NCBI RefSeq assembly: GCF_000174415.1
Contig: NZ_ACJM01000005.1
Coordinates: forward strand, 124,001-188,000
Origin: Dethiobacter alkaliphilus AHT 1
Lineage (GTDB): Bacteria > Bacillota > Dethiobacteria > Dethiobacterales > Dethiobacteraceae
Reading direction: 5' to 3'
DNA length: 64,000 nt
The translations under genes were made by a program, and so were the position numbers. The notes beneath the pieces are model-generated. The model saw only the letters and a program-made list of their open reading frames with translations. It searched no databases and had not been told where the DNA came from. How positions within the stretch are numbered: the first letter of the stretch is position 1; every line of letters starts with the position of its first letter. Of this stretch, positions 13,574 to 20,331 are shown piece after piece.

Positions 13574-15376
13574 TTGATTTTATTAACAGCAGAAAAAATC
13601 AGTAAAAGCTATACCGAAAGAAAGCTCCTTGACGAGGTAAGCTTATCAATAAATAAAGGAGATAAAGTGGGTGTGATCGGTATCAACGGTACCGGCAAAT
13701 CCACTCTTTTGAAGATTATTGCAGAACTTGAGACGGCAGACAGTGGAAGCATTAGCAAATCTGCCGAAGTGAAGATAGGTTATTTACCCCAAAACCCCCA
13801 CTACGACGAAACACTCACAGTTTTGGAGCAGGTTTTTGAAGGGGCTACCGCTGAGGCCAAAGAACTAAAAGAATATGAAGCTAAAGCCATTTTAACCAGG
13901 CTGGGCCTTGTGGATTTTTCCGCCGATGTAAGCAGGCTGTCGGGAGGAGAAAAGAAAAAGGTGGCCATGGCCAGTGCTTTGATTAACCCCAGCGAAATCC
14001 TTATTCTCGATGAGCCCACCAACCACTTGGATAATGACATGGTCTTATGGCTGGAAAATTATCTGCAAAAGTATACAGGCGCTATCTTAATGGTTACCCA
14101 TGACCGTTATTTTCTTGACAGGGTGACTAACAGGATTGTGGAAATCAGCAAGGGAAATCTCTACAATTACCAGGCAAACTATTCACAATATCTGGAGCAA
14201 AAAGCCCAGCGGGAGGAAATGGAACTCAGTACCGAACGGAAGAAGCAAAGCCTCTACAAAAAAGAGCTGGCCTGGATCAGGCAGGGTCCCCGGGGCCGTG
14301 GTACTAAGAGTAAAGAACGAATAGAGAGGTTTGAAAAGTTAGCTGACAGGGAAAAGCCTCAGGCCGCTGATAAACTAAACCTTAGTTCAATGAGCACACG
14401 CCTTGGTAAAAAGACGGTGGAAATCAACAATATTTCCAAAAGCTTCGGTGATAAACAATTGATCCGGGATTTTGACCATATTATCCTGCGGGATGCCAGA
14501 ATAGGTATCATCGGCAAAAATGGGTGCGGTAAGTCCACGCTACTGAAGATTATTGCCGGTGAGATTACCCCTGACCAGGGTGAGGTAGTAATTGGAGATA
14601 CGGTAAAAATAGGTTATTTTTCGCAGGAATGCGAGGAAATGGATACTTCTTTAAGGGTTATCGATTACATCCGCGGCATCGCCGAAAACATTAAGACTCC
14701 GGAGGGCACTCTCACAGCAGCGCAGATGCTGGAAAAGTTTCTTTTTCCCGGAGAGTTGCAGTGGAATCGTATCGAAAAGCTTTCCGGCGGGGAGAAGAGG
14801 CGATTGTTTTTGCTGAGGGTGCTGATGGATGCCCCTAACATTTTACTTTTGGACGAGCCCTCCAATAATCTTGATATTGAAACACTGGTTATTCTGGAGG
14901 ATTATCTGGAAAACTTTAACGGGGCAGTGGTGGTTGTCTCCCATGACCGCTATTTCCTGGATAAAGTTGTGGACCAGATTTTTGAGTTTCAGGGAGACGG
15001 AAAAATAAAGCAGTATGTGGGCAATTACACCGATTATCTGGAGTACTCCACAGCACAGGCCAGGCAGGATAAGCCGGCAAAGAGCCAACGCAAGGAAAAC
15101 GGGAAGGCTCATGTGTCTCCAGCGAAAACCTCCCCCAGGAAACTCAAATTTTCCTATAAAGAAAAACTGGAATTTGAAGAGATAGATGATGTTATTGTGG
15201 GTCTGGAAGAACAACTTCAAAAACTGGAAGAGGATATACAGCGGGAAGCCAGCAATTATACCAAGCTAAACGAATTGCTGCAGCAAAAAGAAGAACTTGA
15301 AAAAGAGCTGGCCCAAAAGATGGAGCGCTGGGTCTATCTCAATGAACTGGCAGAAAAAATAGCAGAGTCTAAGTGA
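13574..15376 (+). CDS. ABC-F family ATPase (ribosome-associated type)
   Basis: 600 residues with two ABC domains and no membrane part. Domain 1 has Walker A GINGTGKST, signature LSGGEKKK and Walker B ILILDEPTN; domain 2 has GKNGCGKST, LSGGEKRR and ILLLDEPSN. The linker (about 200-290) is basic, with RGTKSKERIERFE, and the C-terminal end (about 525-600) is a coiled coil, as in Uup/YdiF-type ABC-F proteins. These act on ribosomes, in translation rescue or antibiotic protection. TTG start with GAGGTG upstream; TATAAT at 13530-13535 is the likely -10. Confidence 0.92.
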   Translation: MILLTAEKISKSYTERKLLDEVSLSINKGDKVGVIGINGTGKSTLLKIIAELETADSGSISKSAEVKIGYLPQNPHYDETLTVLEQVFEGATAEAKELKEYEAKAILTRLGLVDFSADVSRLSGGEKKKVAMASALINPSEILILDEPTNHLDNDMVLWLENYLQKYTGAILMVTHDRYFLDRVTNRIVEISKGNLYNYQANYSQYLEQKAQREEMELSTERKKQSLYKKELAWIRQGPRGRGTKSKERIERFEKLADREKPQAADKLNLSSMSTRLGKKTVEINNISKSFGDKQLIRDFDHIILRDARIGIIGKNGCGKSTLLKIIAGEITPDQGEVVIGDTVKIGYFSQECEEMDTSLRVIDYIRGIAENIKTPEGTLTAAQMLEKFLFPGELQWNRIEKLSGGEKRRLFLLRVLMDAPNILLLDEPSNNLDIETLVILEDYLENFNGAVVVVSHDRYFLDKVVDQIFEFQGDGKIKQYVGNYTDYLEYSTAQARQDKPAKSQRKENGKAHVSPAKTSPRKLKFSYKEKLEFEEIDDVIVGLEEQLQKLEEDIQREASNYTKLNELLQQKEELEKELAQKMERWVYLNELAEKIAESK

Positions 15377-15392
15377 CTCTGCTATTTTTTTT
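15361..15392. terminator. Bidirectional terminator between ABC-F gene and pntB
   Basis: AGCAGAGTC / GACTCTGCT stem (15361-15369, 15375-15383) overlaps the ABC-F stop and is followed by ATTTTTTTT. A-rich sequence on the other side lets it serve the converging pntB as well. Confidence 0.85.
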
Positions 15393-15411: not shown

Positions 15412-17355
15412 TTATGTGGGAATGTCGGATCTGCCCCCCTGCAGGGCATTGATAAGGTTTTCAAGGGTGGTGGAGGCGTTGCCAAGGAGGATGGAAACAT
15501 GGGGCATGGTGTAGAGCGTATTTTCCACGCCGGAGTAGCCGGGTTTTGTGTCCAGGTTGCAGATAATTACCTGCTGGGCTTGGTCCACGTTTAGAACCGG
15601 CATGCCATAGATTGGTGTGCCTTCTGCGGTGTTGGCGGCGGGGTTAATTACATCGGAGGCACCCACCACCAGCACCGCATCGGTATCCTTAAAGCCGGGG
15701 TTTATTTCTTTCAGTTCATAAAGCTTTTCGTAGGGTACATCGGCTTCGGCCAAAAGAACATTCATGTGTCCCGGCATACGTCCGGCCACCGGGTGAATGG
15801 CAAACTTTATGTCCACGCCTCTTTGTTCCAACAAATCCATAACTTTCTTTACATGCATCTGGGCTTGGGCCACAGCCATACCATAGCCGGGGACAATGAT
15901 AACGGATCGGGCTTCTTTTAGAACGCCGGCAGAAGTTTGTACCTGAGCATTTGTAATGCCGTTTTCTAAACAGGAAGGATCACTTATCTCTGAGGCCAGC
16001 TTAGCCAGGGTAGCGGCGGCATTGCCGGGGAGGAGGGAGACATGGGACATGGAGTAGAGGGTGTTTTCCACGCCGGAGTACCCAGGTTTTGTGTCCAGAT
16101 TGCAGATAATTACATGACCGGCTTCGGCAACGTTTAGAACCGGCATACCATAGATTGGTGTGCCTTCTGCGGTGTTGGCAGCGGGGTTAATTACATCGGA
16201 GGCGCCCACTACCAGCACCACATCGGTGTCTTTAAAGCAGGGGTTTATCTCCTTCATTTCATAAAGCTTTTCGTAGGGCACATCGGCTTCGGCCAAAAGA
16301 ACATTCATGTGTCCCGGCATACGCCCCGCCACCGGGTGAATGGCAAACTTTACGTCCACGCCTTTTTCTTCCAATAAGTCTGCGATCTTTTTTACCTGCA
16401 TCTGGGCCTGAGCCACAGCCATGCCGTAGCCCGGAACAATAATTACGCTGTTGGCATTCCTGATAAGTTCAGCCGGTGATTGTCCCTGGCCCGGTGTGCT
16501 TCTGTGCTCCACAGTGGGAGTTATGGTTTGTGAATCGGTACAGACAATTGTGTTTCCCTGCAGAATACTGATAAGAGAGCGGTTCATGGCAGAGCACATG
16601 ATCTTTGTGAGAATCAGCCCGGAAGCTCCGATGATTGCCCCCACAGCCACCAGCAGTGGCTCAGAAATTGTAAAACCGCTAATAGCTGCTGCCAGGCCGG
16701 AACAGGCATTTAACAGGGAAATGGTCACGGGCATATCGGCACCGCCAACTCTGATGGCAAAGAGGATGCCTAAAACCAAAGACAGGGTTATTACCAACGA
16801 CGACGTCAGTACCACTGTTTCCGGGACAAGGTTTGTGGCGGCTACAAAGGCCAAAACCCCTGCGGTTAAAAGCAGTATCAGTGAAATAAATTTTGCCTGC
16901 GGTATTACAACGGGTTTTTGTGGGAGACGCAGGTCTAATTTGGCTGCCGCAATAAGGCTGCCGCTGAGCGTTATACCGCCCACCAGAAATGCCAGTTGGC
17001 TGGAAGTTCGTGTAAAAATATCCATTTGACCGGACCGTTCAATAATTTCAATTAGTGCCACAAGGGCCGATGCTCCGCCACCACAGCCGTTTAGCAAAGC
17101 CACCATTTGCGGCATTTTAATCATAGAAACTCTTATTGCCAACAGGTACCCAATTGATCCGCCGGTGGCAATTGCCGCCCATAGCAAAAGAGAGCTAAGA
17201 ATTTGGTTACTATAAAGAACAAAGAATATTGCCATTAACAGACTGGCTGCAGCCAGACGGTTTCCCTGTCTGGCTGTTTTGGGAGAACCCATTAACCTGA
17301 TTCCCAGCAGGATTAGGGCGGACAGACCAACAGAAACAAGATATGTTCCACTCAT
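15412..17355 (-). CDS. pntB: NAD(P) transhydrogenase beta subunit with duplicated NADP-binding domain III
   Basis: 647 residues; a usual PntB has about 460. Residues 1-262 form the membrane domain II (LLNGCGGGASALVALIE and SLLNACSGLAAAISGF are typical). Then come two complete copies of NADP(H)-binding domain III: residues about 300-456 and 481-638, offset 181 residues. Each has VPGYGMAVAQAQ, IHPVAGRMPGHMNVLLAEA, VLVVGASDVINPAA, GMPVLNV and KPGYSGVENTLY. The two coding stretches are also close at DNA level, with a 44-base identical run. Last gene of pntAA-pntAB-pntB, which couples hydride transfer from NADH to NADP+ with proton entry. GAGGT precedes the ATG. Confidence 0.93.
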   Translation of the reverse strand: MSGTYLVSVGLSALILLGIRLMGSPKTARQGNRLAAASLLMAIFFVLYSNQILSSLLLWAAIATGGSIGYLLAIRVSMIKMPQMVALLNGCGGGASALVALIEIIERSGQMDIFTRTSSQLAFLVGGITLSGSLIAAAKLDLRLPQKPVVIPQAKFISLILLLTAGVLAFVAATNLVPETVVLTSSLVITLSLVLGILFAIRVGGADMPVTISLLNACSGLAAAISGFTISEPLLVAVGAIIGASGLILTKIMCSAMNRSLISILQGNTIVCTDSQTITPTVEHRSTPGQGQSPAELIRNANSVIIVPGYGMAVAQAQMQVKKIADLLEEKGVDVKFAIHPVAGRMPGHMNVLLAEADVPYEKLYEMKEINPCFKDTDVVLVVGASDVINPAANTAEGTPIYGMPVLNVAEAGHVIICNLDTKPGYSGVENTLYSMSHVSLLPGNAAATLAKLASEISDPSCLENGITNAQVQTSAGVLKEARSVIIVPGYGMAVAQAQMHVKKVMDLLEQRGVDIKFAIHPVAGRMPGHMNVLLAEADVPYEKLYELKEINPGFKDTDAVLVVGASDVINPAANTAEGTPIYGMPVLNVDQAQQVIICNLDTKPGYSGVENTLYTMPHVSILLGNASTTLENLINALQGGRSDIPT

Positions 17356-17365
17356 GGCATCTACC

Positions 17366-17641
17366 TCAACTATTCCTAAACATTTTTAGCATCCTGTCTG
17401 TCACAACAAAGCCGCCAACAAGATTAATGGTGGCCAGGGCAATGGCTATGAACCCAAAAACCTTGCTGCCAAGTGAGAGCGCAAATGCCGTTGAGACCAG
17501 TGAGCCGAGAATTGTTACTCCGGAAATAGCATTGGTGCCGGACATTAAAGGTGTATGCAGCAGTTGCGGCACACTGCTGATTACTTTATAACCAAGCAGT
17601 GCCGCCACAATAAAGATAAGTAGTAAAGATAAGAAATTCAT
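17366..17641 (-). CDS. pntAB: NAD(P) transhydrogenase small membrane subunit PntAB
   Basis: 91 residues with three hydrophobic segments (about 3-23, 33-56, 61-82) and the family features SSVPQLLHTPLMSGTNAISG and FVVTDRML. It is the N-terminal membrane part that is fused to domain I in Escherichia coli PntA but separate here, as in the three-subunit enzymes. AAGGAG precedes the ATG; ten bases separate it from pntB. Confidence 0.95.
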   Translation of the reverse strand: MNFLSLLLIFIVAALLGYKVISSVPQLLHTPLMSGTNAISGVTILGSLVSTAFALSLGSKVFGFIAIALATINLVGGFVVTDRMLKMFRNS

Positions 17642-17656
17642 AACTTAGCTCCTTTC

Positions 17657-18841
17657 TTAATCAAGGCCCATAGCTTCCCTTGCTCCGGCATGAAGTATTT
17701 CCCCATCTTTTGTAACAATGGATGAAGAAATAATCTCATCCTCTAAATTTATCTGCAGTTTGCCGTCCTTGAGCAGATTGGATACGAAATTATAGATATT
17801 CCTGGCAAACATCCAGGTTGATGTGGTGGGAACCATGCCGGGGATATTTTTTGTGCCGTCGATGGTTACATCATAGCGCCTCACTATTTCTCCACCCACA
17901 GTTAAGTCACAGTTTCCTCCCTGATCGATGGAGATGTCAATAATTACAGAGCCGGGCTTCATTTGTTTTACCATCTCTTCAGTAATTAAGATGGGGGCAA
18001 CTTTACCGGGCACCAAGGCGGAGCCTATAACTATATCGGCGTTTACCACCGTCTCCCGGATAATAGCCCGCTCTTTAAGCAGCCATTCCTCGGGCAGGTT
18101 TTTGGCATAGCCCCCCTGGCCTGTGGTAAGTTCATGGGGAATCCCCGTTTCTATTACTTTTACCCCCAGGCTTTTGGCATGCTCCAGGGCATCAGGGCGA
18201 ATATCTGTGGCATACACAACTGCTCCCAGCCGTTTAGCGGTAGCTGCTGCCTGCAGTCCTGCCACGCCTGCGCCGATGATCAATGCGGTGGCAGGTTTTA
18301 TCATTCCTACAGCAGTGCCGGTCATGGGGACGAATTTTGTCAGCGTGTTGGCGGCAAATAAAACACTTTTGTACCCTGCCACAGTACTCATAGACGTAAG
18401 CGCGTCCATTTCCTGAGCCCGTGAGATTCTCGGGATACTGTCCAGCGTTAAACTTAAAATGCCTTTTTCCGCCAGTGTCTTAACCAGGTTATGATTCGCC
18501 GGGGCAGCAGGGTGTAAGAATGTCACTAAGGCTTGACCGGCATGCATCATGTCTGCCTCGTGCATTTTTTGTATTTCATTAAAGGCCGGTTCTTTAACTT
18601 TGAGGATAATATCTGCATTTCCAAAAACCTGCATTGGCTCCCTGCAGATTTCTGCACCAACTTTTACATACTCCTCATCCCTGATAAAAGAGCCCTCACC
18701 TGCACCTTGTTCTACTAACACTTTTGCCCCACCGGCGATAAACTGTTCAATGGTGTCCGGATTTGCTGAGACACGTCTTTCGCCACTCATTATTTCTTTG
18801 GGAATTCCAAAGACCAGTCCGGAAAACTGCAGATTAGCCAT
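17657..18841 (-). CDS. pntAA: NAD(P) transhydrogenase soluble NAD-binding subunit PntAA
   Basis: 394 residues, the usual length of separate domain I. Related to alanine dehydrogenase: GIPKEIMSGERRVSANPD at the N-terminus, the Rossmann fingerprint IIGAGVAGLQAAATAKRLGA, and the downstream KVAPILITEEMVKQMKPGSV. It binds NAD(H) and passes hydride to domain III. First gene of the pnt operon (minus strand), GAGGTAAC before the ATG. Confidence 0.95.
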   Translation of the reverse strand: MANLQFSGLVFGIPKEIMSGERRVSANPDTIEQFIAGGAKVLVEQGAGEGSFIRDEEYVKVGAEICREPMQVFGNADIILKVKEPAFNEIQKMHEADMMHAGQALVTFLHPAAPANHNLVKTLAEKGILSLTLDSIPRISRAQEMDALTSMSTVAGYKSVLFAANTLTKFVPMTGTAVGMIKPATALIIGAGVAGLQAAATAKRLGAVVYATDIRPDALEHAKSLGVKVIETGIPHELTTGQGGYAKNLPEEWLLKERAIIRETVVNADIVIGSALVPGKVAPILITEEMVKQMKPGSVIIDISIDQGGNCDLTVGGEIVRRYDVTIDGTKNIPGMVPTTSTWMFARNIYNFVSNLLKDGKLQINLEDEIISSSIVTKDGEILHAGAREAMGLD

Positions 18842-18934: not shown

Positions 18935-18973
18935 ACAGCAAAAAGAAACTGAGTTTCAGTTTCTTTTTGCTGT
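18935..18973 (-). terminator. Terminator overlapping the 3' end of the YheC/D-like gene
   Basis: Perfect 17-bp stem, ACAGCAAAAAGAAACTG (18935-18951) with CAGTTTCTTTTTGCTGT (18957-18973), loop AGTTT. It includes the last codons of the minus-strand gene and has its T-tract inside the stem. Confidence 0.75.
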
Positions 18974-20074
18974 ATCTGTCAAATAAATATATTTTGCGTA
19001 TTGCAATGGGTTGAGAAAAGCCTTAATAATTGTGTCTTTGTCAGCGGCATTGGATAAAGACACTTTGCCTGATTTAGCGTTGCACTCTATGAACCATAAT
19101 TTGCCGCGGGTATCGAGGCCAAGGTCGATACCCAGCTCACCAAATGTGCCGTAACGGTCCTCCACGCATTTGTAAACGGCTTTTAAAAACTGTTCGACCT
19201 GCTTTTTAAAGACAGCAACACTTCCTGCTTCAAGGTTGAGGGTTTCTCTGCAGAATTGCTCAAAAGGATAGCTGGTGCCCCTTGTTGTTACCGGCGCTCC
19301 CTTTCTGCCAACCCTGAAGGGAATGGCCGTAAGTTCCAGATCCCCGCAGCCGTTTCTTTGGACCTCTCCACGCAAATCAATCAAGCTTTCATCTATACAT
19401 AATAAATCGATGGCCTCTTGGATAATCAAATCCTTGTTTAAGAAAAACGATTCTATTTTTTTACCTACGGCGTCCAAGCTTTGTATCGTTTTTGTAACTA
19501 CCTGGTTGCGATAAAAATTGTATTCATATTTTCCGTCGGGGAGCTTTCTGACCGACATTATATCCCTGCCGCCATATCCACTACGTGCTTTGATATAGAC
19601 TTTATTGCTTGCCAGCAGCATTTCTTTCAGGTCGAATTTATTGAGATAGCGCCTGGTATACGGCAGGTGCCGACGCAATAGAGGTTCCGTAGTTAGTAAC
19701 TCATATAGTTCCCACTTATCAAAGTCATGGCGGGGATTGATTTTTTTGATGCCCAGTGCATCAAACTTTTTTCTCACATAATTTAAATGTTTTTTTCGGA
19801 CCCGCGTAGTCATATTAAAGCGATCCATAAACACATCAGGAAATGGGAACTTTCTCAAAACCCAATTTGTACCATCATGAAAAATGCCGGTGATTAGGTA
19901 GTTTTCAAAATCCACACCGCCATAAGAAAAAAAGTATAGTGTTGTTTGTGCTATTTCGTTGGCTTTAGCCAGTTCCCTTATTGCTAAATACTTCTTATCT
20001 TGCTGCTTAACTAAATTATTAAAAACCTTATTGCTAACATACACTGCAACTACAGGTTTTCTAAGATTCTCCAT
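18956..20074 (-). CDS. YheC/YheD-family ATP-grasp protein
   Basis: About 372 residues. The ATP-grasp domain shows VYIKARSGYGGRDIMSVRK (nucleotide-binding Lys and glycine-rich loop), LIIQEAID, DLRGEVQRNG, and GELGIDLGLDTRGKLWFIECNAKSG (metal-binding Glu and Asn). YheC/YheD proteins are spore-coat-associated in Bacillus; the ligase reaction is not known. ATG 20074 was chosen because GAGGAG lies six bases upstream; the frame extends four codons further. Monocistronic by context. Confidence 0.88.
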   Translation of the reverse strand: MENLRKPVVAVYVSNKVFNNLVKQQDKKYLAIRELAKANEIAQTTLYFFSYGGVDFENYLITGIFHDGTNWVLRKFPFPDVFMDRFNMTTRVRKKHLNYVRKKFDALGIKKINPRHDFDKWELYELLTTEPLLRRHLPYTRRYLNKFDLKEMLLASNKVYIKARSGYGGRDIMSVRKLPDGKYEYNFYRNQVVTKTIQSLDAVGKKIESFFLNKDLIIQEAIDLLCIDESLIDLRGEVQRNGCGDLELTAIPFRVGRKGAPVTTRGTSYPFEQFCRETLNLEAGSVAVFKKQVEQFLKAVYKCVEDRYGTFGELGIDLGLDTRGKLWFIECNAKSGKVSLSNAADKDTIIKAFLNPLQYAKYIYLTDTAKRN

Positions 20075-20331
20075 ATCTCTCCTCATTATTGTAGCTATAA
20101 GTTGAAAGCAAATACGCTATATCATATGTGGTGTGTTTTTGCTGTGTTACTGCTGCATATCCACCTGGGGTTGGCGGTGCTTGTTTTTTTGCAGAAACTT
20201 AACCTGATTTCAAGGGAAGAACGACAATTAGCACTAGCGGATGGCTTTTGTTCAGAAGTTGTTTCATTTCTGTTCAGAATGCCTTATTATAATGTTATTA
20301 TAAATATAACTAAACCGAAGGGATTGTTTTG
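20075..20331. other. 257-bp divergent intergenic region
   Basis: Lies between the YheC/D-like gene (minus) and a small membrane protein gene (plus). An open frame starting TTG at 20102 crosses it but has no ribosome site and contains the direct-repeat promoter (20249-20293), so it is not taken as a gene. Confidence 0.6.
20249..20293 (+). promoter_or_regulatory. Direct-repeat promoter, copy A (11-bp TGTTCAG repeats)
   Basis: Three tandem 11-bp units start at 20249, 20260 and 20271: TGTTCAGAAGT, TGTTTCATTTC, TGTTCAGAATG. A consensus -10, TATAAT, follows at 20288-20293, 17 bases after the start of the third unit, so the repeats cover the -35 region. This is how OmpR-family response regulators bind. 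The same layout occurs at 45343-45375 and 53291-53323. Confidence 0.65.

Follow-up and report, generated by a model that had tools for sequence, protein, structure and literature searches.

How the mobile domain III (dIII) of a transhydrogenase moves back and forth between the site of hydride transfer and the membrane domain (dII), and why the dimer works asymmetrically, is a central question about these enzymes. A pntB gene of Dethiobacter alkaliphilus AHT 1, located in the 64,000-nucleotide stretch of DNA analysed here (the window), bears on this question: one dIII per protomer is expected of PntAB, while two are encoded in the window and up to four in its relatives. Is the second domain real, how widely do such arrays occur, and what might they do? 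Natural enzymes with two, three or four dIII per membrane domain make the central question testable by counting copies.

Architecture of the window PntB and its operon

The pntB gene and its partners were delineated from open reading frames, a genome search and Pfam matches, as follows.

15412..17355, minus strand: PntB (transhydrogenase beta subunit) with two tandem domains III, 647 aa
16552..17355, minus strand: membrane domain dII, residues 1-268
15988..16497, minus strand: domain III copy 1, residues about 287-456
15436..15948, minus strand: domain III copy 2, residues about 470-640
15949..15987, minus strand: minimal inter-dIII linker, about residues 457-469 (about 30 residues if counted to the first strand of copy 2)
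16093..16101, minus strand: N-L-D (residues 419-421) of copy 1, at the place of K-R-S (NADP 2'-phosphate)
15550..15558, minus strand: N-L-D (residues 600-602) of copy 2, at the place of K-R-S
15998..16297, minus strand: part of the repeat most alike, copy 1 (87% to 15455-15754)
15455..15754, minus strand: part of the repeat most alike, copy 2
17366..17641, minus strand: PntA2 (first transmembrane helices of dII), 91 aa; PF12769; nearest solved chain 4o9p_C
17657..18841, minus strand: PntA1 (dI, NAD(H)-binding), 394 aa; PF05222 and PF01262

The tandem dIII described in the first-pass annotation is real. In a whole-genome search, a single open frame of 657 aa matched dII once and dIII twice, with both dIII complete, and no second PntB turned up in the 3.11-Mb genome. 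Against the Pfam family PNTB (PF02233) the protein gave two stretches totalling 778.6 bits (cut-off 31.7), the first of them a full-length match over residues 8-455; against the NCBIfam equivalog for PntB (NF006974) it scored 536.7 bits, under the curated cut-off of 689. The PntA2 and PntA1 genes lie directly upstream, and the operon thus encodes all three domains together, with dI and dII present once each and dIII twice. PntA1 keeps the RAQxMD loop and the NAD-ribose aspartate (IPRISRAQEMDALT and VYATDIR).

The same three domains and gene order are found in PntA1/PntA2/PntB of Thermus thermophilus (PDB 4o9u, 9hjx) and in PntAB of E. coli (9l76), and the three-polypeptide layout is that of Thermus. 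The window PntB matched the Thermus and E. coli structures at 3e-94 and 4.5e-93 over residues 12-454 and 6-450, respectively. As in these enzymes, the dI RAQxMD loop, the dII Asp (GGADMP) and the linker Arg are kept. Unlike them, the window enzyme has two dIII, N-L-D in place of KRS/KRG, an extra Arg beside the dII Asp, and no His at the PntA2-TM3 and PntB-TM9 channel positions.

Both dIII copies retain GYGMAVAQAQ, IHPVAGRMPGHMNVLLAE, GASDVINPAA and GYSGVEN, and the Rossmann GxGxx(A/V), RMPGHMNVL and D-V-x-N-P motifs are present. The earlier statement that both copies keep the NADP motifs therefore holds for those of the dinucleotide fold, but not for the KRS motif of dIII loop E, which is missing from both copies and replaced by N-L-D. 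When aligned, the two copies were 87% identical over 300 bp (15455-15754 vs. 15998-16297, gap-free, at a spacing of 543 bp); over 165 codons their DNA identity was 83%, with dS 0.53, dN 0.112 and dN/dS 0.21. A pairing of one canonical with one degenerate dIII was ruled out, as motifs are kept in both copies and dN/dS is 0.21. An AlphaFold model of the whole chain, built from 4 sequences, was of low confidence (mean pLDDT 55, pTM 0.36), and docking geometry could consequently not be judged from it.

Distribution of domain III arrays

Relatives were sought in 398 genomes of one phylum and 199 of another, mostly metagenome-assembled genomes (MAGs), and in plasmids. A dIII match was found in 48 of the 398 genomes of the phylum, and PntB arrays with two, three or four dIII occur in many Bacillota families. 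The tandem dIII is hence no peculiarity of this genome; arrays of two to four copies are widespread within one class of PntB. Four-copy arrays in single open frames are present in G157, G166 and G323, three-copy arrays in G195 and G392, and two-copy arrays in G168, G180, G246, G266, G290 and G316. Members of the same class as the window genome also have tandem dIII (G002, G019, G025), as do G058, G060 and G090, in which the contig ends within the second copy. PntB proteins of more than 600 residues are thus found elsewhere, including in single-contig genomes, where G316 encodes two dIII (671 aa) and G323 four (1015 aa). Each array operon that could be read whole has one dI, one PntA2, one dII and two to four dIII, and the dI RAQxMD loop and NAD aspartate are retained wherever matched in relatives.

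Every array found belongs to a class in which KRS is replaced by N-x-D. No array was detected in the canonical KRS/KRG class; the 11 such genes examined, from the same phylum and from Planctomycetota, all had a single dIII. A quick tree of dII, which has several long branches, separated N-x-D from KRx genes with an SH-aLRT of 99 (the 11 KRx genes as outgroup). Sixty-two N-x-D genes had a readable dII. Arrays are carried by 23 of them, including G105 and G251, whose three copies are interrupted by assembly gaps or broken frames; a single dIII was read in 35, and the remaining 4 are truncated too soon to be assigned. Single-dIII members are thus common (35 of 58 resolved genes), which argues that the array is not required for function. 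The single-copy count is an upper bound, because several draft contigs end in dIII and the middles of the G105 copies are filled with N. Short-read assemblies break, or may collapse, at repeats, and arrays are therefore probably under-reported.

Several loci required individual reading. In G105 (L075:4737-7581) the near-identical middles of three dIII are runs of N, which can mimic broken genes; the approximately 115 extra nucleotides in the middle of all three copies were considered as inserts or introns, and this was rejected when reading of the DNA revealed the N runs. G251 shows a similar pattern within dIII. The dIII of G154, which lie in overlapping frames, were left out, as the whole pnt operon is in many broken frames; the many overlapping pnt frames at this locus (L080:2817-4906) represent a decaying operon or an error-rich assembly.

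Outside Bacillota, 94 Planctomycetota genomes had a dIII match, and a tandem was found in one of them, the Phycisphaerae MAG G480. Its N-x-D PntB (L105:1351-3345) has two nearly identical domains III, both N-x-D, and a second PntB in the same MAG is of the KRS type and single. The N-x-D gene could be a transfer or reflect a mis-binned MAG. Single-copy N-x-D PntB genes are also present in Planctomycetota L098, L099 and L100 (G490, G511, G578), and these group with the G480 gene in the dII tree. On plasmids, sampled from rhizobia, other Pseudomonadota, Rhodococcus, haloarchaea and others, no tandem was seen: 60 of 60 sampled pntB matches to the two-copy query were one stretch of at most about 0.63 kb, corresponding to one dIII.

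A search of the open-access literature found no description of tandem, duplicated or multiple domains III in PntB. Elsewhere PntB was found with one movable nucleotide domain per chain; the repeated dIII of the window and its relatives, all with an altered site for NADP recognition, suggest an undescribed class of enzyme.

A proposed carrier array and the evolution of the dIII copies

In known transhydrogenases dIII lies between dI and dII as a mobile, swivelling domain, and the dimer shows it in two orientations (PMC5742237), which makes the enzyme dependent on a carrier that swings. The architecture, distribution, constraint, homogenisation and motif change of the arrays were each established by computation. 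The simplest reading, and the one that we favour at about even odds, is that in N-x-D PntA1-PntA2-PntB enzymes both dIII are functional and take turns at one dI/dII, the array being selected and homogenised; turn-taking and a flux advantage are what we infer here. As a mobile nucleotide carrier, dIII would swing between dI, for hydride transfer, and dII, where ions are coupled and nucleotide is exchanged. With several dIII strung like beads on flexible linkers, one could be docked for hydride transfer while another is at dII or exchanging nucleotide, and turnover would then be less limited by a single swinging domain. Selection would maintain such an array, and recombination between copies would homogenise it. 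That one chain might serve both functions at once is structurally plausible, and this role remains putative.

Arrays that may work in a like manner, with no homology to dIII, are known. Pyruvate dehydrogenase E2 carries one to three near-identical swinging lipoyl domains ahead of a single core, and its lipoate is covalently attached. In PUFA synthases, tandem, similar and mobile ACPs are set as beads on a string on flexible linkers, and output climbs with the number of carrier domains (PMC5067506, PMC3585217). The ACPs are covalent acyl carriers, whereas dIII holds a tightly bound nucleotide, and PUFA synthase is cytosolic whereas transhydrogenase is an ion-coupled membrane enzyme.

Two features of the arrays bear on this mechanism. 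The linkers between copies measure 28-61 residues, with A, E, K, S, P and G abundant, and so are no shorter than dII-dIII linkers, for which 14-19 residues are reported (PMC5742237). With pntA1, pntA2 and dII each present once in the operon, the ratio of dIII to dI and dII must rise, and the change in stoichiometry proposed in the first-pass annotation is borne out.

The annotation had also proposed that the copies are either recent or kept alike, and comparison with G002, the nearest array-bearing relative, agrees with this, as the copies group by species at 51 aligned sites and by position at just one. Synonymous distance was 0.53 between paralogues and 1.7-2.6 between orthologues. In G002, synonymous differences by 25-codon block were 0/23, 1/23, 9/24, 7/24 and 0/23, the patchiness that gene conversion tracts would be expected to leave. 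To judge from these comparisons, the copies within a gene are homogenised by concerted evolution. In a tree of dIII sequences, the copies of one species cluster in most species. Family f62 departs from this: a separate clade is formed by its first copies (G157, G195 and G457, together with G166 of another family) and another by the last copies (G157, G195, G457, G417), and those arrays are therefore older than the species. G246 has two dIII in one PntB (L087:2311-4305) with 64% DNA identity that are not sisters on the tree, and one of them may come from another lineage.

The main rival to the carrier array is near-neutral drift in copy number, in which unequal recombination expands and contracts the repeats, extras are tolerated, and purifying selection only removes poisoning copies. 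Homogenisation is what such a process would also produce, and three further observations favour it. Copy number differs among close relatives (two in G000 and G002, one in G010); parsimony on the dII tree requires at least 14 changes between the single and array states, which may be losses from ancestral arrays or repeated gains; and a third dIII in G180 (L081:2694-3164), just past the stop of a two-copy array, is out of frame and shortened. The glycine motif of this third dIII is gone and changes have built up in it; it is a decaying array copy, an example of what becomes of a copy without constraint. The intact copies behave otherwise. Most copy pairs had a dN/dS of 0.05-0.21 (0.35 in G316), and in the three- to four-copy arrays of G157, G195 and G166 synonymous sites are near or at saturation (pS 0.54-0.93) while the proteins are conserved (pN 0.07-0.17), from which it follows that every copy has long been constrained. 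Each copy of these old arrays has, by this measure, long been needed, or at least policed. Two other points weigh against drift: first and last copies remain recognisable across species, and the canonical class was found without arrays although recombination is not barred there. We judge near-neutral drift to be rather unlikely.

Nucleotide recognition and remaining alternatives

In E. coli PntB, K424-R425-S426 (KRS) recognises the NADP 2'-phosphate, and loops D and E, which include KRS, set the specificity for NADP(H) over NAD(H) (PMC9529548). Among 82 aligned dIII of the array class, Asn stands at the K place in 82 and Asp at the S place in 80, and G-Y-G, HPVAGRM and the D392 equivalent are each present in 82 of 82. 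Arg adjoins the dII Asp in 61 of 62 N-x-D genes, where 8 of 11 canonical genes have Pro. As the dII Asp pairs with an Arg of the dIII linker (PMC5742237), this class-specific Arg sits near the Asp/Arg pair.

These changes could mean that NAD(H), or some other nucleotide in place of NADP(H), is what N-x-D dIII carries, with multiplication offsetting weaker binding or serving a different reaction. The loss of K, R and S from loops that define specificity in E. coli, and the Arg beside the Asp, speak for this reading. dI, however, keeps the NAD-type aspartate, and with NAD bound on either side no net redox reaction would result; furthermore, the 2'-phosphate could be recognised otherwise. We regard a changed nucleotide as unlikely. 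Since NAD on both sides gives no net reaction, NADP(H) is favoured, and the nucleotide that we infer for N-x-D dIII is probably NADP(H), recognised in another way. Binding of NADP by both copies is nevertheless not assured where KRS is lacking, and another cofactor may take its place. With the textbook recognition motif gone, the cofactor of the class and its role in anaerobic Bacillota are not readable from annotation.

The composite proposal that the N-x-D class is an ion-coupled transhydrogenase with changed dIII nucleotide specificity, and with up to four dIII forming a carousel of carriers that outnumber coupling sites, is tentative and on balance doubtful. If the carousel reading were true, the assumed rule of one dI-dII-dIII protomer would be broken, by a membrane enzyme with more hydride carriers than coupling sites.

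Loss of the channel histidines was considered as a further hallmark of the class and rejected. At the positions of Thermus alpha2 His42 and E. coli beta His91 the window has Ser and Asn, as do nearly all N-x-D members (motif-typed PntB TM9 column, N 54 and H 1). The position of the channel His can shift (PMC5742237), and neither position has a His in canonical G618, G659 and G437 or in the Phycisphaerae gene; its absence is not diagnostic, because some canonical relatives also lack it. As the genome is probably that of a haloalkaliphile and both positions are empty, the coupling ion might be Na+ or H+.

A division of labour, with one dIII for docking to dII and the other for hydride transfer at dI, or with one acting as a regulatory nucleotide sensor, would account for the position-specific clades of first and last copies in the f62 arrays (G157, G195) and for the strong divergence of the two G246 copies. 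Most arrays, including that of the window, are homogenised, and all examined motifs are common to the copies, which argues against specialisation in those arrays; we hold this explanation to be quite improbable.

An assembly artefact is scarcely credible: near-identical tandem repeats are a classic assembly problem, several MAG contigs stop within dIII and one assembly is N-filled there, but 17% of bases differ between the two dIII of the window, too many for one copy assembled twice, two- and four-copy arrays occur in the single-contig genomes G316 and G323, and the draft-genome errors seen would conceal copies rather than create extra ones.

Two minor observations concern the surroundings of the operon. 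Directly upstream of it, on the same strand, lies a gene for a YheC/D-like ATP-grasp protein (18956-20086). At its other end, between the convergent pntB and ABC-F genes, a perfect inverted repeat was found by eye at 15353-15392 (ATAGCAGAGTC-ACTTA-GACTCTGCTAT, with A and T runs on its flanks), which looks like a shared bidirectional terminator.
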